This document shows positions 22,617-63,993 of a stretch of DNA of 64,000 nucleotides, in pieces. The stretch comes from Bacteroidia bacterium (lineage in GTDB: Bacteria; Bacteroidota; Bacteroidia; Flavobacteriales; Flavobacteriaceae): the NCBI GenBank assembly GCA_030431695.1, contig JAUIIU010000007.1, positions 1 through 64,000 on the forward strand. The letters run 5' to 3'. Each line of letters starts with the position of its first letter. Position 1 is the stretch's first letter. The notes beneath the pieces are model-generated. The model worked only from the letters and a program-made list of their open reading frames with translations, did not search any database and was not told the origin of the DNA. The position numbers and the translations under genes are program-made.

Positions 22617-23630
22617 TTATTTTGAGAACCTGTGAAGGGTGAATGTCATGGCCGCTAAAAGGAAAAATGCAACTACCTGGTGCAATACGCCTAACCACAC
22701 CGGAACCTGCAGCAGCAGGGTGAAAACACCAAGGGCGAACTGAACGAAAACTAGCATTACCAGCCAATTCACACCTTTTCTCTGCGAGCCAGTCAAAGGC
22801 CGTTTTCGCGCTTTGAACCATGCAGCCATAATAAGCCCAACAACCACATATGCCAGGTATCGGTGAACGAACTGTACCCCGCTTTTCCCCTCGACGAAAT
22901 TCTTCCATACAGGTGACTGTTCGATGGTCACGGTCTCGTGGATGAGCTTCCCGTCGCTCATCATAGGCCAGCTATTGTGTATCCAGCCGGCATCGAGTCC
23001 GGCAACGAATGCGCCCCAGATGATCTGCAGCAACAGTACCCCCAGGGACAGCCGGAGAAAGTTCCTGAAGGCCTTATCCACTTCTTTTTTGGTTGGGTAG
23101 ATAAGGTCCAGAGCTACCCACAAGGTGTAGGCGAATGTTATGAAAGCGGTTGTCAGGTGCATTGCAAGTCGGTAATGACTAACATCCGGGCGATCTACCA
23201 GTCCACTTTTTACCATATACCAGCCCAGGAACCCCTGGAAACCGCCCAGGAACAACAGAACTAGTGATTTTCTAATGGTTGGTCGCGAGAGTTGTTTCCG
23301 AAGAAGAAAATACAGGAAGGGGATAATGAATACAATTCCAATAAGCCTGCCGATCACCCTGTGTATCCACTCCCAGAAGTAGATGTCCTTGAATTCTTCA
23401 AGGGTCATGTTGTAGTTCAGTTTCTGGTATTCGGGGTATTGTTTGTATAGGTCGAAAGCTTCCTCCCATTCAGCGATATTCATCGGTGGCACTGTACCCG
23501 AGATCAGCTTATAATTCGAGATCGATAACCCGGAATGCGTCAGGCGTGTGATCCCGCCAACTACTACCATTACAAAGATCAGAGTACATCCTATCAGCAG
23601 CCAGGTGATTACTTTTTTGTTATCTTTCAT
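22617..23630 (-). CDS. ctaA: Heme A synthase
   Basis: Inner-membrane enzyme of the COX15/CtaA family that oxidises the haem O methyl group to give haem A for aa3-type oxidases. It is 337 residues with eight hydrophobic helices in two four-helix halves. The four haem-ligand His appear in expected places: WEWIHRVIGRLIG, HYRLAMHLTTAF, FVHRYLAYVVVG and GVLHQVVAFFLL. The opening WLLIGCTLIFVMVVVGGITRLTHSGLSI is the CtaA signature. It is the proteobacterial-like long type rather than the short Bacillus type. It lies downstream of the composite repeat array, which occupies almost the whole gap to the CCA-adding enzyme gene. The oxidase genes are elsewhere. Confidence 0.95.
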   Translation of the reverse strand: MKDNKKVITWLLIGCTLIFVMVVVGGITRLTHSGLSISNYKLISGTVPPMNIAEWEEAFDLYKQYPEYQKLNYNMTLEEFKDIYFWEWIHRVIGRLIGIVFIIPFLYFLLRKQLSRPTIRKSLVLLFLGGFQGFLGWYMVKSGLVDRPDVSHYRLAMHLTTAFITFAYTLWVALDLIYPTKKEVDKAFRNFLRLSLGVLLLQIIWGAFVAGLDAGWIHNSWPMMSDGKLIHETVTIEQSPVWKNFVEGKSGVQFVHRYLAYVVVGLIMAAWFKARKRPLTGSQRKGVNWLVMLVFVQFALGVFTLLLQVPVWLGVLHQVVAFFLLAAMTFTLHRFSK

Positions 23631-23650: not shown

Positions 23651-23781
23651 GATTGTTGGATTTTTAGATTATTGGATTTTCGGATTTTTAGATTGATGGT
23701 ATTTAAGATTGATCAACTTAACACTTAACACTTAACACTTAACACCAAACAATGAACAATGAACAATGAACAATGAACACC
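23651..23781 (+). repeat. Composite intergenic array A: 8 units of 8 bp then 7-bp units
   Basis: Read on +, eight consecutive 8-base units run from 23651 to 23714 (GATTGTTG, GATTTTTA, GATTATTG, GATTTTCG, GATTTTTA, GATTGATG, GTATTTAA, GATTGATC) without a phase slip. Two bases later come four exact CTTAACA units (23717-23744), then four exact AACAATG units (23748-23775). The array ends five bases before the CCA-adding enzyme's stop and begins 20 bases from ctaA's start. ATTGTT in the left half and AACAAT in the right are complementary, so the transcript could fold back. Arrays B and C in this window share this design. Confidence 0.9.
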
Positions 23782-23785
23782 AAGA

Positions 23786-25210
23786 CTAAACACCCTTCAC
23801 CTTTAATCCTATTTCTTTTCCTTTTTTCAGCATATATTCCCTCGCGGCTTCATATTCATTCGGGATCTGCCCTTCCAGTATCGCTTCCTTGATTGCATCT
23901 TTTATGATCCCGATCTCTCTCGAGGGTTTGATTCCGAAGGTCTCCATGATCTCTTCACCACTAACCGGAGGCTGAAAGTTTCGGATATGATCTCGTTCTT
24001 CAACTTCGACAATTTTTTCACGCACCCGCTGAAAATTCTGGTGGTATCGCTTGAATCGCTTTGGGTTCTTCGTTGTGATATCAGCTTCACACAAGGTCAT
24101 CAGGTCGTCGACATAATCACCCGCGTCGAATACCAGTCGCCTTATGGCACTGTCGGTTACTTCGGAAGCGAGTACTATTGGCCTGGAACTCATCAGTACC
24201 ATCTTCTGAACGAATTTCATATGCTCGTTCAACGGCATTTTCAATCGTTTGAAGAGTTTATAGACCATTTTTGAACCGACGAACTCATGACCGTGGAATG
24301 TCCATCCCAGATTTTGATCGAAGCGCTTGGTGGGTGCTTTTCCAATGTCGTGCAGCAAGGCAGCCCAGCGTAACCATAGGTTGTCTGTGGTTTTCGAAAT
24401 ATTGTCCACCACCTCCAGGGTGTGCCAGAAATTATCCTTATGACGCTGTCCCTCAACTTCCTCAATACCTTCCAAAGCTACCAGTTCGGGCAGGATGTAC
24501 TTCAGTAAACCCGTTTTGCGCAACAATGAGAAACCCTTCGACGGCTTCGGGGCCAATAGAATCTTGTTGAGCTCATCGACGATGCGTTCTTTGGAAATGA
24601 TCTCGATCCTGGTGGCATTGCGGGAGATCGCCTCCAGGGACTCCTTCTCAATACGGAAATCCAGCTGGGTGGCGAATCGGATTGCTCTTAGCATCCGAAG
24701 CGGGTCATCGCTGTAGGTCACATCCGGATCCAGGGGTGTTCGGATAAGCTTGTCATCCAGGTCCTTCAATCCATTGAAAGGGTCGAGCAATTTTCCAAAA
24801 TCGTCTTCTCCTAAACTCAGGGCCAGGGCGTTGATGGTAAAATCCCGCCGATTCTGGTCGTCTTCCAGCGTTCCGTGGGAAACTGCCGGATTTCGACTGT
24901 CCTCACTGTAACTTTCCTTGCGTGCGCCAACGAATTCGAGTTCGATCCCGGAAGTTTTCAGCATGGCTGTACCGTAGGTCTTGAAGATCGAAACTTTGGG
25001 CTTACCCGGGAGTAAGTTCGAAACTGCATTAGCAAGGTCGATCCCGCTGCCCACAGCAACAATGTCTATGTCCTTGGCATCACCCCGACCGAGTATATGG
25101 TCGCGCACAAATCCACCGATCACATAGGATTCAAGCCCTAGACTGGCGGCCGCCTTGGAGATGACCCTGAAAACAGGATCTTTTAACGCGTTTGGATACG
25201 ATCCGGACAT
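23786..25210 (-). CDS. cca: CCA tRNA nucleotidyltransferase with HD domain
   Basis: Class II nucleotidyltransferase of about 474 residues that adds or repairs the 3'-CCA of tRNA. Recognisable parts are the catalytic head YVIGGFVRDHILGRGDAKDIDI with the metal-binding DID, RRDFTINALAL, the tRNA-binding DPLRMLRAIRFATQL, and an HD phosphohydrolase motif in WAALLHDIGKAPTKRF with HGHEFVGSKM. The neck and body ends with a charged tail. ATG at 25210 (MSGSYPNALK) is preferred to the GTG at 25225. PcnB and CCA-adding subtypes share this fold; without a full alignment the CCA activity is inferred, as is usual for the single HD copy in Bacteroidota. Array A follows immediately. Confidence 0.9.
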   Translation of the reverse strand: MSGSYPNALKDPVFRVISKAAASLGLESYVIGGFVRDHILGRGDAKDIDIVAVGSGIDLANAVSNLLPGKPKVSIFKTYGTAMLKTSGIELEFVGARKESYSEDSRNPAVSHGTLEDDQNRRDFTINALALSLGEDDFGKLLDPFNGLKDLDDKLIRTPLDPDVTYSDDPLRMLRAIRFATQLDFRIEKESLEAISRNATRIEIISKERIVDELNKILLAPKPSKGFSLLRKTGLLKYILPELVALEGIEEVEGQRHKDNFWHTLEVVDNISKTTDNLWLRWAALLHDIGKAPTKRFDQNLGWTFHGHEFVGSKMVYKLFKRLKMPLNEHMKFVQKMVLMSSRPIVLASEVTDSAIRRLVFDAGDYVDDLMTLCEADITTKNPKRFKRYHQNFQRVREKIVEVEERDHIRNFQPPVSGEEIMETFGIKPSREIGIIKDAIKEAILEGQIPNEYEAAREYMLKKGKEIGLKVKGV

Positions 25211-25270
25211 ACTTGAAAAATTCACGCAAAGGTACGAACTAGAGCCTGCTGTTCCAAGGGTATGACTTCC

Positions 25271-34734: not shown

Positions 34735-35148
34735 ATGGGTCGTATACTGGCATTAGACTACGGAACCAGGCGCACGGGGATAGCGGTGACGGACGAACTT
34801 CAGATCATCGCCTCCGGACTCACCACGGTTTCAACAGACGAGCTTCTGTCTTATCTCGCAAATTATTTTTCCGAAGAGACCGTAGAACTGCTGCTTGTTG
34901 GCGAACCAAAGCAGAAAGACGGTACGCACAGTGCCGTGGAAGAAGAAATACAAAAATTCCTGGAGGAGTTCGGCAAGCAATTTCCCGATATGGAGGTGAA
35001 GCGTGTGGATGAGCGGTTCAGCAGTAAGATGGCGTTTCAGACGATGATAGACGGCGGACTCAAAAAGAAGAAGCGAAAGGACAAAGGATTGATTGACGAG
35101 ATCAGTGCGACTATCTTGCTTCGGGATTTTTTGAATTATAGAACATAG
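34735..35148 (+). CDS. ruvX: Putative Holliday junction resolvase / pre-16S rRNA nuclease RuvX (YqgF)
   Basis: RNase H-fold nuclease of 137 residues, in E. coli required to process the 5' end of 16S rRNA, and proposed as a junction resolvase. Motifs seen are ILALDYGTRRTGIAVTDE (first catalytic Asp), LLVGEPKQKDGTHS (second site; Glu in place of the usual GLP) and VDERFSSKMAFQTM, and the C-terminal IDEISATILLRDFL provides the last Asp/Glu. Its stop TAG supplies the first base of composite array B. The peptide deformylase gene follows the array in the same direction. Confidence 0.93.
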   Translation: MGRILALDYGTRRTGIAVTDELQIIASGLTTVSTDELLSYLANYFSEETVELLLVGEPKQKDGTHSAVEEEIQKFLEEFGKQFPDMEVKRVDERFSSKMAFQTMIDGGLKKKKRKDKGLIDEISATILLRDFLNYRT

Positions 35149-35302
35149 ATTTTTAGATGGTTAGATATTTGGATTGTTGGATTTTTGGATTTTTAGATTG
35201 TTGGATTTTTGGATTGGTGGAATATGAGGGAGGTAGGTTCAGCTGATTTTTACCACAACCCACAACCCACAACCGACAACCTACATCTAACCACAAACCC
35301 TT
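35148..35302 (+). repeat. Composite intergenic array B: 9 units of 8 bp then 7-bp units
   Basis: Nine 8-base units run from 35148 to 35219 without a phase slip (GATTTTTA, GATGGTTA, GATATTTG, GATTGTTG, GATTTTTG, GATTTTTA, GATTGTTG, GATTTTTG, GATTGGTG). The first G is the last base of the ruvX stop codon. A 34-base spacer follows, then 7-base units CACAACC (three copies, 35254-35274), GACAACC, and decayed units to about 35302. The def start is 17 bases further on. GTTG in the left half and CAAC in the right half are complementary. Confidence 0.88.
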
Positions 35303-35318
35303 AACGATAGTAACTTAA

Positions 35319-35909
35319 ATGATATTACCAATTGTTGCATATGGAGATCCGGTACTTCGCCAAAAAGCAAATGAAATAGGAAAGGATTATCCGAAATTCG
35401 ATGAATTGCTCGAGAATATGTTCGAGACCATGTATGGTGCCAGGGGAATTGGCCTTGCGGCTCCGCAGGTTGGCTTGCCGATTCGTCTTTTTATAGTAGA
35501 TGCAACACCTTTCGAGGATGATGATGATCTTTCTGAAGAGGAACGTGAATTCTGTTCCACCTTCAGGCAGGTATTCATCAATGCGAAGATAATTGAAGAA
35601 GAAGGTGATGAGTGGGCATTTAACGAAGGCTGCCTGAGTATCCCAGATATCAACGAAGATGTGTTTCGCCAGCCGCAGATCACCCTGGAATACCTAGATG
35701 AGAACTTCGAGAAACATACAAAGACTTTCGACGGGATCGTTGCCAGGATCATTCAGCATGAATACGATCACATCGAAGGAATCCTCTTTACCGATAAACT
35801 ATCTCCCCTGAAAAAACGTTTGATCAAAGGAAAGCTTGCAAATATCTCGAAAGGCAAGATCGACGTTTCCTATCGCATGCGATTTCCCAATGCAAAAAAG
35901 AAACGTTAA
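35319..35909 (+). CDS. def: Peptide deformylase
   Basis: Metalloenzyme that removes the N-formyl group from nascent proteins. It is 196 residues with the three family motifs: GIGLAAPQVG (motif 1), EGCLSIP (motif 2, Cys metal ligand) and QHEYDHIEGILF (motif 3, HExxH). The start context IVAYGDPVLRQKANEI is standard. It lacks a nearby fmt gene. It lies between array B and the DUF5606 gene, whose own weak promoter (CTTG at 35914, GATATTTG at 35938-35945) follows this stop. Confidence 0.96.
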   Translation: MILPIVAYGDPVLRQKANEIGKDYPKFDELLENMFETMYGARGIGLAAPQVGLPIRLFIVDATPFEDDDDLSEEEREFCSTFRQVFINAKIIEEEGDEWAFNEGCLSIPDINEDVFRQPQITLEYLDENFEKHTKTFDGIVARIIQHEYDHIEGILFTDKLSPLKKRLIKGKLANISKGKIDVSYRMRFPNAKKKR

Positions 35910-45761: not shown

Positions 45762-46961
45762 TTAGTTATGCTTATTCTTTTTTTGCGCTACGAAGTCCAT
45801 CACTTCTGCTATAATGGCACATCCCTTACGTATTTCCTCTTCGCTAATCGTAAGGGGTGGTGTTATTCGTATCGCCCTGGGTTCGAAGAGTAGCCAAAAA
45901 AGAAGGAGTCCGCGACCCTGGCATTCCAGGATGATCTCGGTGGCTATTAGGGCCGATTCCGTCATGATGGCGAGCATTAATCCTTTACCTCGGATTTCAC
46001 CGATCAGTTCATGCTGAAGTAGTTCCCTGAACAGTTTTTCTTTCTGAAGGGTTTGTGGGATCAGGTCGCCTTCTGTGATCTCCTTCAGAGTTGCGAGCGC
46101 AGCAGCGGCAATTACCGGATTCCCTCCGAAGGTGGTGATATGGCCAAGCTTCGGGTTATCGCTCAGGAGTAGCATCCGTTCTCTCGAGCTTGTAAAGGCC
46201 CCAACAGGCATGCCACCTCCCATGCCTTTGCCCATGACCAGTATGTCCGGGACCACATCGAAATGTTGGAAGCCGAATAGGGTTCCTGTTCGACCAAAAC
46301 CTGGCTGTATCTCATCCATAATAAGAAGTGCGCCAACGGCTTCACAATGCGATTTAACCTTTTCCAAGTAGTTGCTCTCCGGAAGGATGAATCCCGCACC
46401 ACCTTGGATGGTCTCCAGGATCACTGCGGCAGTCTTGTTTGTTATGCGATCGAGGTCCTTTTCAGAATTAAAACGAATCGCATGACAATCGGGCAGGAGC
46501 GGTCCGAACGGGGTTTTACGTTCCTCGTGGCCCATCACGCTCAGGGCTCCGTAGGTGTTTCCGTGGTAGGCGTTCTCAGCATATAGAATCTCCGATCTCC
46601 CTGTGGCTCTCCTGGCAAGTTTGATGGCGCCATCGATAGCTTCGGCACCACTGTTGACCAGGTAAGTGGTCTCCAGTGGATCCGGGAGTTTTTCTGAAAG
46701 TAATTTTGTGAATTGCAGGGCTGGTTCCTGGATGTATTCTCCGTACACCATCACATGCAGGTATTTGTCCAGCTGTTCCTTTACAGCAGAAACTACTGCC
46801 GGATGCCGATGTCCCAGGCTGCAGGCCGATACACCTGCGATAAAATCCAGATGAGCTTTGCCGGAGGTATCATAGATATAGCTTCCTTCGGCATGAGACA
46901 CCTCCATTCCCAGTGGGTGGGGGGTCGTTTGTGCCTGGTATTTTAAGAAATCATCCTTCAT
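45762..46961 (-). CDS. Class III (ornithine/acetylornithine-type) aminotransferase
   Basis: PLP-dependent fold-type I aminotransferase of about 399 residues. It shows FIAGVSACSLGHRHPAV, the SGAEAIDGAIKLARR signature, ENAYHGNTYGALSVMG, the cofactor-face MDEIQPGFGRTG, and the PLP Lys in DILVMGKGMGGGMPVGA. The track's 57-base extension lacks homology and overlaps the OstA-like gene further; ATG 46961 (MKDDFLKYQAQTTPHP) is used, which still overlaps it by 11 bases. In flavobacteria this gene follows the OstA-like gene regularly. It may be an acetylornithine or other omega-aminotransferase; no arg genes are near, so the substrate is left open. Confidence 0.92.
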   Translation of the reverse strand: MKDDFLKYQAQTTPHPLGMEVSHAEGSYIYDTSGKAHLDFIAGVSACSLGHRHPAVVSAVKEQLDKYLHVMVYGEYIQEPALQFTKLLSEKLPDPLETTYLVNSGAEAIDGAIKLARRATGRSEILYAENAYHGNTYGALSVMGHEERKTPFGPLLPDCHAIRFNSEKDLDRITNKTAAVILETIQGGAGFILPESNYLEKVKSHCEAVGALLIMDEIQPGFGRTGTLFGFQHFDVVPDILVMGKGMGGGMPVGAFTSSRERMLLLSDNPKLGHITTFGGNPVIAAAALATLKEITEGDLIPQTLQKEKLFRELLQHELIGEIRGKGLMLAIMTESALIATEIILECQGRGLLLFWLLFEPRAIRITPPLTISEEEIRKGCAIIAEVMDFVAQKKNKHN

Positions 46962-54028: not shown

Positions 54029-54047
54029 TTAGTACGTTGGTATTTTA

Positions 54048-54188
54048 GATTGTTAGATTACTAGATTACTAGATTATTAGAAAGTTAGTATGTTAGATTG
54101 CTTATTTTTTTCTGAACACTGAACACTGAACACTGAACACTGAACACCGAACACCGAACGCTGAACACCGAACACTGAACACCGAACC
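54048..54188 (+). repeat. Composite intergenic array C: 7 units of 8 bp then 11 units of 7 bp
   Basis: Seven 8-base units run from 54048 to 54103 (GATTGTTA, GATTACTA twice, GATTATTA, GAAAGTTA, GTATGTTA, GATTGCTT). Eight bases later an uninterrupted array of eleven 7-base units begins at 54112: CTGAACA five times, then CCGAACA, CCGAACG, CTGAACA, CCGAACA, CTGAACA and CCGAACC, ending at 54188, whose C is the first base of the downstream methyltransferase's stop codon complement. The M48 start is 20 bases from the other end. Confidence 0.92.
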
Positions 54189-54973
54189 TACCCAAACCCC
54201 CTCTGTCTTTTGGCCTCAAAGATAAGGATTCCTGCCGCTACCGAAACATTCATGCTGTCGATCTCTCCCTGCATCGGAATTATGATGTTTTGGTCACTGT
54301 TTTCGAGCCATTCCGCTGAAAGTCCGTCGGCTTCTGTCCCGACCACAATAGCCGAACCCCCGGTATAATCACAACCGTGATATGGCTTCGATGCCTGAAG
54401 GGCTGCACAGAAAATACTGATGTTCTTTGTTTTCAGGAAGGAGATGATCTCATCAGTGCTTCCCGTGGCAATTCGATTGGTGAAGACACAGCCCACACTA
54501 CTGCGAATGATATTCGGATTGTAGAGGTCGGTCCTTGGGCTCGCGATGATCACTGCATCCAGGTTGGCAGCATCCGCCGTTCTCAATAATGCGCCGATAT
54601 TCCCCGGTTTTTCAGGCGCTTCAGCAACAAGGACAAGAGGGTTTTCTCCTAGACCAAGAGCCTCTAACTCGAGATCTTTAGCTTCAACGATCGCTAAAAT
54701 TCCTTCGGTCGTTTTGCGGTAGGCGAGTTTCTGGTATACTTCCGAGCTTATCCGTATAACTTCCGCAAAAAATTCTTCCGAAGAAATCTCTCCATAAATT
54801 TCCGGGCAAATTAACACGGTATTGATCGAATAACCTCCTTTTCGGGCCAGATCGATCTCGCGCTTTCCCTCTGCAACAAAAAGTCCGGACTTCCTGCGTT
54901 CCCGTGATTTCTCAAGCAGTTGAACGACCTGTTTAACCAGGGGGTTCTGAAGGCTACTAATCGTTTTGATCAT
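54188..54973 (-). CDS. SPOUT-family RNA methyltransferase (TrmH/SpoU type)
   Basis: RNA 2'-O-methyltransferase of 261 residues with the trefoil-knot fold. The N-terminal substrate-binding domain (LQNPLVKQVVQLLEKSRERRKSGLFVAEGKREIDLA) is followed by the three SpoU motifs: PGNIGALLRTADAANLDAVI (motif 1), SAIVVGTEADGLSAEWL (motif 2) and IIPMQGEIDSMNVSVAAGILIFEAKRQR (motif 3). The conserved Asn and Arg of motif 1 and the Ser-Asn of motif 3 are present, so it should be active on tRNA or rRNA; the target base is not predictable. Its stop codon borders array C, and it starts 127 bases from the divergent lipoprotein gene. Confidence 0.9.
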   Translation of the reverse strand: MIKTISSLQNPLVKQVVQLLEKSRERRKSGLFVAEGKREIDLARKGGYSINTVLICPEIYGEISSEEFFAEVIRISSEVYQKLAYRKTTEGILAIVEAKDLELEALGLGENPLVLVAEAPEKPGNIGALLRTADAANLDAVIIASPRTDLYNPNIIRSSVGCVFTNRIATGSTDEIISFLKTKNISIFCAALQASKPYHGCDYTGGSAIVVGTEADGLSAEWLENSDQNIIIPMQGEIDSMNVSVAAGILIFEAKRQRGFG

Positions 54974-61032: not shown

Positions 61033-63993
61033 TTAGTTTAAGGTGTCACAATGGAAATGAATCTTATCTTTTCCTCTCGGGGGCCTGGTTTTGGCTCCGC
61101 CGTTCTTTTCGGTTAGCATCATATTGATGAGTTTGGTACGCTCGGCCTGTATGGCTTGTCGCTTTGCTTTGTCCTGTTCCAGGTCAAAGTAGACCGTTCC
61201 GTCGATGATGGTTTTTTCGGCTTTCGCATAGACCGACAGCGGATGATCGCTCCACAAGACCAGGTCGGCGTCCTTACCTTCCTTGATACTACCGGTACGA
61301 TCGTCTATATGCAACAGCTTAGCCGGGTTGATGGTGACCATTTTCCAGGCTTCTTCCTCAGTCATTCCTCCATATTTCACTCCTTTGGCGGCTTCCTGGT
61401 TCAAACGACGAGACATTTCACCGTCATCGCTGTTGATCGCTACGGTAACGCCCTGGCTTGCCATTATCGCTGCGTTGTACGGTATGGCATCGTTCACTTC
61501 GTATTTATAGGCCCACCAGTCACTGAAGGTAGAACCTCCCACACCGTGAGCGGCCATTTTATCGGCTAATTTATATCCCTCAAGTATGTGTGTGAATGTA
61601 TTGATCCGGAAGTTAAAGCGCTCTGCTACCTTCATCAGCATATTGATCTCACTCTGAACATAAGAGTGACAACTGATAAATCGGTCACCGTTCAGGATCT
61701 CGACAAGGACTTCCATCTCTTCGTCGTGGCGATAAGGTTTGCCGCTATTCTTCGCCGCTTCGTATTCTAGAGCTCGGCTGAAGTAATTCACGTAAAGCTG
61801 TTCCACACCCATACGAGTTTGGGGGAACCTGCTGTAGCTCTCCCAGTTAGATTGCTTTACGTTCTCACCCAAAGCGAATTTGATGAACTTCGGACTATTA
61901 TCATAAAGCAGTTCATCGGCATCTTCACCCCATTTCAGTTTGAGGATGGCCGAACGTCCCCCAATTGGGTTGGCCGATCCGTGAAGGATCTGGATGGAGG
62001 TAACCCCACCCGCCAGGTTCCTGTATATGCTGATATCTTCCGGGTTCACAACATCTTCGATGGAGACTTCAGCAGAAGAATTATGACCCGCTTCGTTGAT
62101 GGAAAGTGCAGCGATGTGAGAGTGTTCATCGATCACCCCGGCGGTAAGGTGTTTTCCGGAAGCATCGATCACCACAGCGCCTGAAGCACTCAGGTTCTTA
62201 CCGATCTTGTCGATCTTTCCGTTCTTTACAAGCACGTCGGTATTGCTCAAAACACCAGAATTCTCACTCGTCCAAACCGTAGCATTCCTGAAGAGCATAT
62301 TCTGTGCTTTCGGTTTTGTACTGAAACCATAGCCCACATTTGGGTAGGTGATTGGAACAATTTCGGGCGCGGCCTTGTCTTCTTTCTTTTTGTCTTCTTC
62401 TGAAGCGTCCATTTCCCCGGTACGGCTTGCCGTAAAGCGTGTCTCAACTCCTGACGGTAATACCATTTTACCCGCAAATGTGGTTCCTTCCGAAGGAATC
62501 AAAGCCCTGGATCGGTAAGATTCACCACTTTCATCATCCTTAAAGGAAAGTATGAGCCAGTCTGCTTCGTACTCCAGTTTGGAGGTAAACTTCTTCTCCC
62601 CGAGTTTGACTTCTGCCTTGGGTTTAGAAACCTCACCTGAAAGTTTCAGCTCATAACTCTTACCACTGGCATTGAGGTTGTAAGTACCTCGAATATCCTT
62701 TTGATTCATGTCATTGATCACATGCTTGCGTCCCTGTACCCAGTTTTCGTAAATGGTGGTTTCCTTATCGAAAATTGCACCGGATGTGACCAGGAAGTTT
62801 GCGTATTTACCGGCCTCCAGGGTTCCGAGTACATCACTCTTACCCAGCAGAGCTGCTGGCACGGTGGTAAGCGATTCGAGCGCTTTAGACTCATCATACC
62901 CGTATTCGAATGCTTTCGAAAGTTTCCCGCTAAATGCGGAAGGTGATTTCAGATCGTGGGTGGTTAGTGCAAAGGTAACTCCGTTATCAGCAAGAGCCTT
63001 GAGGTTACCGGGTGCCTGGTTCCAGTTACGCATGTCTTCCAGGGAGAGATATTTAGTTGCAAAGGGATCACTCACATCGTAGGCGTCCGGGAAGTTGATC
63101 GGTATGATATATCTCGCGTTGGACGCTTTGATCTCGGCTATGGATTCATATTCGTCACCTCCGCCCACAATAATAAAGTTGAGGTTGAACTGATCACTGA
63201 TCTTATCGGCGCGAAGATCATTTCCTTTGTCTCCTGCCTCGATGATCGCAGGCAGGCCTTTATTGGCTATAAGCGCTTCCAGGGACCTGTCGCGGGTCGA
63301 GGCAAGGCCTTTTTCGTACCAATCCATGTCGTAGTGTAATTGTCGCAGCAATGCAAGGGAACCCATCAGCGACGTAGGATAGGATTGTCTGGAGGCAACG
63401 CTCTTACTGAACGAGAAGAACTGAGCCGCCGAATCATCGAGTATTCGAGTGGACGCATCGTCTTCATCGTTTAAGGTTACCAGAACACCGGTACCCCTCG
63501 CTATTCCGTCCATGATATGTGTTCCCAATACTCCGAAACCAGCCTTACGGAATTCTTCGGCCTTTTTCTTGTCGTACTTGAATTTTGAGATCGCCCGGTT
63601 CTCCGGCATGATGTGATCGTTCCAGTAGAATCCTTCACGAGAGGCTTCGTATTGAGGCGAACGCCCGCGTCCTTCAGCTCGCTTAGGCTTTTCCACCCCG
63701 AAGTCGGTATAGATATCGATAAAAGACGGGTAGATATGTTTGCCATTCAGATCGATAACCACTGTATTTTTCGGGATGTTTACAGATCTGCCGGAAGCGA
63801 CTACTTTTCCTTCCCTGATCAGTAATGTTCCATTCTCAACAACCTGGGCAGGCCCGACGTGGATAGTGGCATTCGTAAATGCGGTGTAGTTGGTATTCTT
63901 TTCTTTAACACCATCGTTCTTAGGATAGTATTCCTGCGCATAGGTGATGGTTAAAGTGAAGAACACCATTAGGAGTAAATAGTGTTTTTTCAT
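61033..63993 (-). CDS. Double-domain amidohydrolase, N-terminal half degenerate
   Basis: Exported protein of 986 residues (signal peptide LLLMVFFTLTITYAQ). It contains two complete amidohydrolase folds. The N-terminal one (about 30-430) has FTNATIHVGPAQVVENGTLLI and VIDLNGKHIYPSFIDIYTDFG, where HxH is replaced by D-x-Y. The C-terminal one (about 560-950) is intact: AGVIDEHSHIAALS (HxH, about 622), a KFALGENVKQS segment, FISCHSYVQSE (about 775), NTFTHILEGYKLAD (about 798) and AINSDDGEMSR (about 854), giving the full metal set. A beta domain (KSYELKLSGEVSKPK) links them. The substrate is probably a cyclic amide or dipeptide; the family is not specific. It is the first gene visible and its promoter may lie past the window end. 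Confidence 0.9.
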   Translation of the reverse strand: MKKHYLLLMVFFTLTITYAQEYYPKNDGVKEKNTNYTAFTNATIHVGPAQVVENGTLLIREGKVVASGRSVNIPKNTVVIDLNGKHIYPSFIDIYTDFGVEKPKRAEGRGRSPQYEASREGFYWNDHIMPENRAISKFKYDKKKAEEFRKAGFGVLGTHIMDGIARGTGVLVTLNDEDDASTRILDDSAAQFFSFSKSVASRQSYPTSLMGSLALLRQLHYDMDWYEKGLASTRDRSLEALIANKGLPAIIEAGDKGNDLRADKISDQFNLNFIIVGGGDEYESIAEIKASNARYIIPINFPDAYDVSDPFATKYLSLEDMRNWNQAPGNLKALADNGVTFALTTHDLKSPSAFSGKLSKAFEYGYDESKALESLTTVPAALLGKSDVLGTLEAGKYANFLVTSGAIFDKETTIYENWVQGRKHVINDMNQKDIRGTYNLNASGKSYELKLSGEVSKPKAEVKLGEKKFTSKLEYEADWLILSFKDDESGESYRSRALIPSEGTTFAGKMVLPSGVETRFTASRTGEMDASEEDKKKEDKAAPEIVPITYPNVGYGFSTKPKAQNMLFRNATVWTSENSGVLSNTDVLVKNGKIDKIGKNLSASGAVVIDASGKHLTAGVIDEHSHIAALSINEAGHNSSAEVSIEDVVNPEDISIYRNLAGGVTSIQILHGSANPIGGRSAILKLKWGEDADELLYDNSPKFIKFALGENVKQSNWESYSRFPQTRMGVEQLYVNYFSRALEYEAAKNSGKPYRHDEEMEVLVEILNGDRFISCHSYVQSEINMLMKVAERFNFRINTFTHILEGYKLADKMAAHGVGGSTFSDWWAYKYEVNDAIPYNAAIMASQGVTVAINSDDGEMSRRLNQEAAKGVKYGGMTEEEAWKMVTINPAKLLHIDDRTGSIKEGKDADLVLWSDHPLSVYAKAEKTIIDGTVYFDLEQDKAKRQAIQAERTKLINMMLTEKNGGAKTRPPRGKDKIHFHCDTLN

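Follow-up and report, generated by a model that had tools for sequence, protein, structure and literature searches.

Between ctaA and the gene for a poly(A) polymerase/CCA-adding enzyme, the 64-kb stretch of DNA that we analyzed (the window) carries an array of eight 8-base units followed by two runs of 7-base units, and we asked what kind of repeat this is and how it could have come to lie where it does. An earlier note on this DNA had described eight octamers in exact 8-base register followed by four copies of CTTAACA and four of AACAATG, which direct reading confirmed, and had placed the same order at two other loci (35148 and 54048), which was also found to be correct. The octamers of the first locus (locus A) read GATTGTTG GATTTTTA GATTATTG GATTTTCG GATTTTTA GATTGATG GTATTTAA GATTGATC (23651–23714), with GATT as the first letters of seven of the eight units; the heptamers follow as CTTAACA ×4 (23717–23744) and AACAATG ×4 (23748–23775) plus a partial unit. 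Tandem Repeats Finder listed the arrays at all three loci (A, B, and C) independently, and Rfam, at gathering score, gave zero matches anywhere in the 64-kb window. The features are as follows.

22617–23630, minus strand: ctaA (COX15-CtaA), downstream gene of locus A
23651–23714, plus strand: octamer arm of locus A, eight GATTNTTR units, G/T-rich on the plus strand
23717–23779, plus strand: heptamer arm of locus A, CTTAACA ×4 then AACAATG ×4.5, A/C-rich on the plus strand
23786–25225, minus strand: poly(A) polymerase/CCA-adding enzyme gene, upstream gene of locus A
35148–35219, plus strand: octamers of locus B, nine units
35253–35285, plus strand: heptamers of locus B, CCACAAC ×4.7, A/C-rich
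54040–54103, plus strand: octamers of locus C, TTAGATTN
54112–54187, plus strand: heptamers of locus C, CTGAACA ×10.9, A/C-rich

The ctaA start codon (CAT 23628–23630) is 20 bp away from the 5' edge of locus A, and the stop codon of the CCA-adding/poly(A) polymerase gene (CTA 23786–23788) lies 6 bp past the end of its heptamers. Locus B stands between ruvX and def; the first base of its array is the G of the ruvX TAG stop codon (35146–35148), and def starts at 35319, past the heptamers. Locus C stands between an M48 peptidase gene and a SpoU-family rRNA methylase gene, and its heptamers are flush with the stop codon of the latter (CTA 54188–54190).

The three loci had been taken for a three-member family, which proved too low a count: in the 2.1 Mb that we read of the 2.98-Mb source genome there are 36 array clusters, nearly all of them intergenic. 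The dominant periods in this genome are 7 and 8 plus their multiples, and a Markov-3 control for the whole sequence yielded almost none; within the window, near-matches of two units numbered 20, against 3.4 ± 1.8 expected. A Markov test of chance origin had been set beforehand. Order-3 and order-5 models, fitted to the genome's own intergenic DNA and run for 20 simulations each, produced zero period-7/8 arrays and zero composites, which supports a nonchance origin; the real intergenic regions include 12 with heptamers, 15 with octamers, and two strict composites. The tandem runs at these loci exceed statistical expectation, which is how long simple sequence repeats are defined. The GATTnTTR pattern, sought in a sample of 60 genomes, matched 32 times in the source genome, twice in one congener, and 0 times in other relatives, and in a wide genome scan such arrays occur in many other Bacteroidota. 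Among 295 genomes of the class, the source genome was the sole match to the strict composite pattern, which is not a measure of array frequency because composites rarely hold the exact ACT spacing. The genome-wide and relatives scan for which the earlier note had called bore out a nonrandom intergenic family with a fixed order, recurring in the source genome and in relatives. The claim of two exact periods stood at the window loci but not elsewhere, where the arrays are looser and take 8/8, 7/7, 7/8, and single-armed forms.

When all arrays were aligned over phase and strand, the consensus on the keto (G/T-rich) strand was GTTGTNR for heptamers and ATTGTTRG for octamers. By our reading of these unit sequences, the heptamer looks like the octamer minus its A, and octamers and heptamers look like versions of one G/T-rich unit; the GTTGTNR form, seen on its A/C strand, accounts for the 7-base units that differ among the three window loci.

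We then asked whether the order of the two arms holds in general. A scan for three consecutive octamers in 84,980 named genomes gave at least 117 loci, chosen for strong GATT octamers and mostly from Bacteroidota (Flavobacterium, Kordia, Aequorivita, Winogradskyella, Anaerophaga, Fluviicola, and others); some of the records are metagenome bins with doubtful names. Among the matches listed, 130 oriented GATT arrays had 13 secondary arrays within 150 bp upstream (11 G/T-rich, 0 A/C-rich) and 47 within 150 bp downstream (28 A/C-rich, 6 G/T-rich). Adjacent array pairs collected without the GATT seed ran from G/T-rich to A/C-rich in 15 cases versus one in reverse, and pairs placed by match coordinates in the closest congener (G005) and in G004 did so in eight cases, with 0 in reverse. 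This order is its own reverse complement and is therefore valid on either strand, so that the "same order on the + strand" reported for the window loci, although correctly seen, is better stated as a strand-symmetric rule, G/T-rich first and A/C-rich second. General spacer composition was considered as the cause of the polarity and rejected; the outward keto content beside the gene edge is ∼0.66 at arrays versus 0.50 to 0.56 in array-free spacers, which have little or no keto bias. The polarity is specific to the arrays.

The same arrays are anchored at gene edges, which we took from a longest-ORF caller. Among the scan matches listed, the 5' edge of the keto strand lay a median of 7 bp from stops and 14.5 bp from starts, and its 3' edge lay 66 to 128 bp from the next gene. 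In the source genome, the G/T 5' edge was the one nearer to a gene in 28 of 34 arrays (one-sided binomial p about 1e-4 by our arithmetic), and 41% of G/T 5' edges, versus 0% of other edges, fell within 15 bp of a gene; these counts are not fully independent because there are several loci per genome and because the Anaerophaga arrays lie inside a larger dispersed repeat. Arrays tend to have the 5' end of their G/T-rich strand at the edge of a gene, whether that edge is a stop or a start, and a spacer between two genes therefore reads as a G/T-rich and then an A/C-rich array on both strands. Many arrays share bases with a stop codon, and there the codon was TAG in eight of eight cases at offset −1 and TGA in all cases at offset −2, a match that is partly forced by the GATT register. 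TAG was the stop codon for 18 of 35 near arrays versus 25% of all ORFs. Divergent spacers were rare among the array spacers (7 of 99 among the scan matches listed).

Comparison with congeners separated the site of an array from its unit. The ctaA spacer of G005, read directly, holds GTAT-type octamers, then CCACAAC ×5, and then ACTCATC-like heptamers, in the same order as the GATT octamers, CTTAACA, and AACAATG of the source genome; the two have no common array body, and neither fixed ends nor a common body beyond the units, as expected of a mobile element, was found on comparing locus A with G005. Six congeners were examined at ctaA, and the five others have no array there. At def, G005 has keto AGAAGTT heptamers (C1:106822–106873) and amino heptamers (106903–106947) before the def start at 106961, and at the methylase it has keto AGCAGTT units (46136–46222) past the gene end (46068). 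The gene after the source-genome array C99:25435–25499 is preceded, with the same polarity, by GTAT octamers 11 bp before its start in G005 (C67:14661/14672) and by octamers 13 bp before its start in G004 (C107:15398/15411). Beside the source-genome array C28:13452–13623, the neighboring gene, whose orthology is less sure because identity is only 57%, has in G005 octamers and then amino heptamers that extend to 61533, the gene itself ending near 61549; in G006, keto heptamers begin about 3 bp past the gene end. At five of the five sites tested (ctaA by reading, four by coordinates), G005 has an array in the orthologous position that shares the polarity but not the units; site and polarity persist while units differ. 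From the number of G005 clusters listed (about 45) and of spacers (several hundred), we estimate chance overlap at well under one. GATT-type units make up about half of the octamer matches in the source genome versus about 2 of 48 in G005. Copy-number change was observed between species only. Orthologous spacers of two Winogradskyella species, for example, hold more than 32 near-identical octamers (L213:7739–7994) versus about 12 varied ones (L191:1220–1310), and both arrays begin 4 bp before the same start codon.

In the G005 orthologue of the gene at 23786–25225 (L174), the final codons and the TGA stop appear within the heptamer array (GTGAAGA/GTGAAGG/GTGATGA), and array growth may therefore have changed the C terminus of the G005 CCA-adding enzyme.

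The reading that we prefer, and in which our confidence is evenly balanced, is that these are dispersed intergenic short tandem arrays with one unit grammar that spread from gene edges through slipped-strand synthesis, stay in place, and turn over their units. An array would start from the sequence beside a coding edge, where a TAG or TGA stop could provide the bases with which the first unit opens, and would lengthen outward by 7 or 8 nt at a time through repeated rounds of slipped-strand synthesis. The growing array would replace the old spacer as far as the neighboring gene, where purifying selection would halt it; once established, it would stay at its site while further slippage and exchange between arrays turned over the unit. 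The arrays would then be tolerated 3' and 5' untranslated spacers that need no locus-specific regulatory job. Outward growth by slippage fits the way arrays are anchored, the stop codons they share, their changes in length by whole units, and the turnover of those units. It leaves the G/T-richness of the outward strand unexplained, and it is for this reason that we go no further than even confidence. Plain slippage is strand-symmetric and by itself gives neither gene-outward polarity nor species-biased units, and persistence at the same site could be selection for function.

Selection of that kind is central to the alternative that survives best, which we nevertheless consider unlikely: a boundary signal at the RNA level, in which a sequence-tolerant Csp/S1-like OB-fold binder with a 7- to 8-nt footprint reads G/U-rich arrays after stops, or in which an A/C-rich array before a start is an unstructured leader. 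Selection may here hold polarity and site while leaving the unit free to drift, as is consistent with both being kept though units change, and arrays do extend as far as the ATG (0–10 bp). MacGregor (2015) suggested such binding for TAACTGA repeats, citing CspB with one protein per heptamer (PMC4679880). Against this, the polarity is identical where both edges are stops (e.g., L127, L256, L296), and octamer G/T-outward edges are about equally common at starts and stops, and therefore one translational reason is insufficient for both; moreover, most genes have no array, and five of six congeners lack one at ctaA. A broader formulation, which we regard as doubtful, is that Bacteroidota carry a largely sequence-independent gene-boundary mark consisting of a step length of 7 or 8 and an outward G/T strand, either produced by a dedicated process that extends ends or maintained by selection, while the unit word may change between species.

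A dedicated generator of this sort would extend broken intergenic ends with G/T-rich 7/8-mers, as in telomere-like addition, and then join them, so that the G/T-to-A/C order on both strands would be automatic. The strand-symmetric head-to-head order, the outward placement at both gene edges, and the species-biased unit sets all agree with it, but single-armed arrays are common, and we know of no enzyme or template for such a process. We rejected Ku-dependent end joining and reverse-transcriptase templating because neither Ku (PF02735) nor reverse transcriptase (PF00078, RVT_1) was found in any of the genus's seven genomes. As far as these two enzyme families go, this counts against the simplest generators, whether end-joining or RNA-templated. 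Taken as a whole, we judge a dedicated generator improbable.

An imperfect hairpin, acting as a bidirectional terminator or attenuator in which the A/C-rich array pairs with the G/T-rich array, is in our view very unlikely. Downstream flanks are indeed more complementary to the arrays than upstream flanks (Wilcoxon p 2e-11), and folding is very strong at a few loci whose arms are almost perfect inverses (L256, z −12; L270, z −10; L127 of the source genome, z −6.6). But the match is not locus-specific, with a complementarity of 18.7 for an arm's own partner versus 17.5 for swapped partners and p ≤ 0.05 in only 11 of 107 cases, and across species 28 to 46% of array-region folds lie below z −2 versus 34% for ordinary spacers. 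At the window loci, ViennaRNA z-scores against shuffles were +0.43 and −0.26 at locus A and +1.47 and −1.35 at locus C, and were low on one strand only at locus B (−4.46). The RNA fold-back that the earlier note had offered as a role, with window loci not consistently above shuffles, arms without partner preference, and array spacers that fold like array-free ones, is rejected as a general rule on the folding and arm-swap controls, with L256, L270, and L127 as few exceptions. In L127 (3568–3679), a convergent spacer consists wholly of an octamer array and its inverse and forms the strongest hairpin among loci of the source genome.

To a slippage-prone length switch (phase variation) of ctaA, another suggested role, we give hardly any credence; the array does lie within the ctaA leader, and arrays change by whole units between species, but similar arrays also adjoin a wide range of unrelated housekeeping genes, with stops and starts equally represented, and we found no feature peculiar to the locus. 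A helix-phased protein array likewise fell, as the periods are 7 and 8 plus multiples, not near 10.5 bp or a multiple of it, and there are almost no arrays at 10 to 11.

Some arrays lie in or near other repeats. In Anaerophaga thermohalophila (L207, L241, L242, L243), octamer arrays lie inside a dispersed repeat of ∼340 to 380 bp that is 82 to 91% identical and also has a 9-bp A/C-rich array, and here the array looks to be carried by the larger element. A palindromic REP-like motif of the CACTGAGCGGAGTCGAAGTG/CTTCGACA type lies near arrays at L031 (G005:C14), L139:2569–2618, and L062:4791–4830; at L139 and L062, CTTCGACA makes its own 8-bp tandem, which is a different 8-mer family. Viral contigs gave 11 stretches, several of them GC-rich or copies of one sequence, which leaves a phage origin unsupported.

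Heptamer repeats have long been on record in bacteria with neither a rule nor a mechanism to account for them. The two rules described here, G/T strand outward and site kept while the unit is replaced, unite octamers and heptamers, are testable in any complete Bacteroidota genome, and would account for spacer differences between related species that look unalignable; they also allow slippage, end repair, and selection to be told apart as the origin. Our literature search on the unit strings, the octamers, and the head-to-head composite found no paper on these repeats in the library searched. Cyanobacterial STRR heptamers are families of 7-nt intergenic tandem repeats, from which the present arrays would differ in unit sequence, in having octamers, and in composite order. 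Like intrinsic terminators and REP-type palindromes, the present arrays are intergenic and strand-symmetric in their G/T-then-A/C order, but unlike them they have no locus-specific pairing and no general excess of folding. In the long simple sequence repeats of Mrazek (2007), as summarized in PMC4679880, the 5- to 11-nt class is longer than chance, heptamers are commonest, the repeats are attributed to polymerase slippage, and they lie outside genes because the period is not a multiple of 3. The present tandem units likewise exceed chance with periods that are not multiples of 3; they differ in that octamers are as frequent as heptamers and in their polarity and gene-edge rule, neither of which is part of that summary.

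The closest known system is the TAACTGA heptamers that MacGregor (2015) described in Beggiatoaceae, cyanobacteria, and five Bacteroidetes (PMC4679880). Most of those sets point at a start codon and typically stop 1 nt short of it; reverse sets that follow a stop codon are less common (a Flexibacter set immediately past a stop is one), strains differ by 7-nt indels, and mixed heptamers occur. The Microcystis sets have no consistent start-directed orientation (PMC4679880). The Beggiatoaceae and Flexibacter positions agree with the G/T-outward rule, and the Microcystis sample does not clearly do so. As for our own heptamers, the A/C strand points toward the start in the TAACTGA sense at locus B, before def; those of loci A and C lie next to a stop codon and are reversed, like the minority of published sets. 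The two kinds of repeat share 7-nt intergenic direct repeats (for the heptamer arm only), a species-patchy distribution that includes Bacteroidetes, reach to the base before the start codon, indels in 7-nt steps, and the same spacer standing empty in close relatives; TAACTGA read as AACTGAT is the AAC heptamer form of the present arrays. They differ in that the present units vary (CTTAACA, AACAATG, CCACAAC, CTGAACA) and none is TAACTGA, and in that the present arrays have octamers, two head-to-head arms, a G/T-outward polarity at starts and stops, and unit turnover at orthologous sites. We conclude that the present arrays are of the same kind as the TAACTGA heptamers and add a newly described form to a class of bacterial repeat that is known but unexplained.
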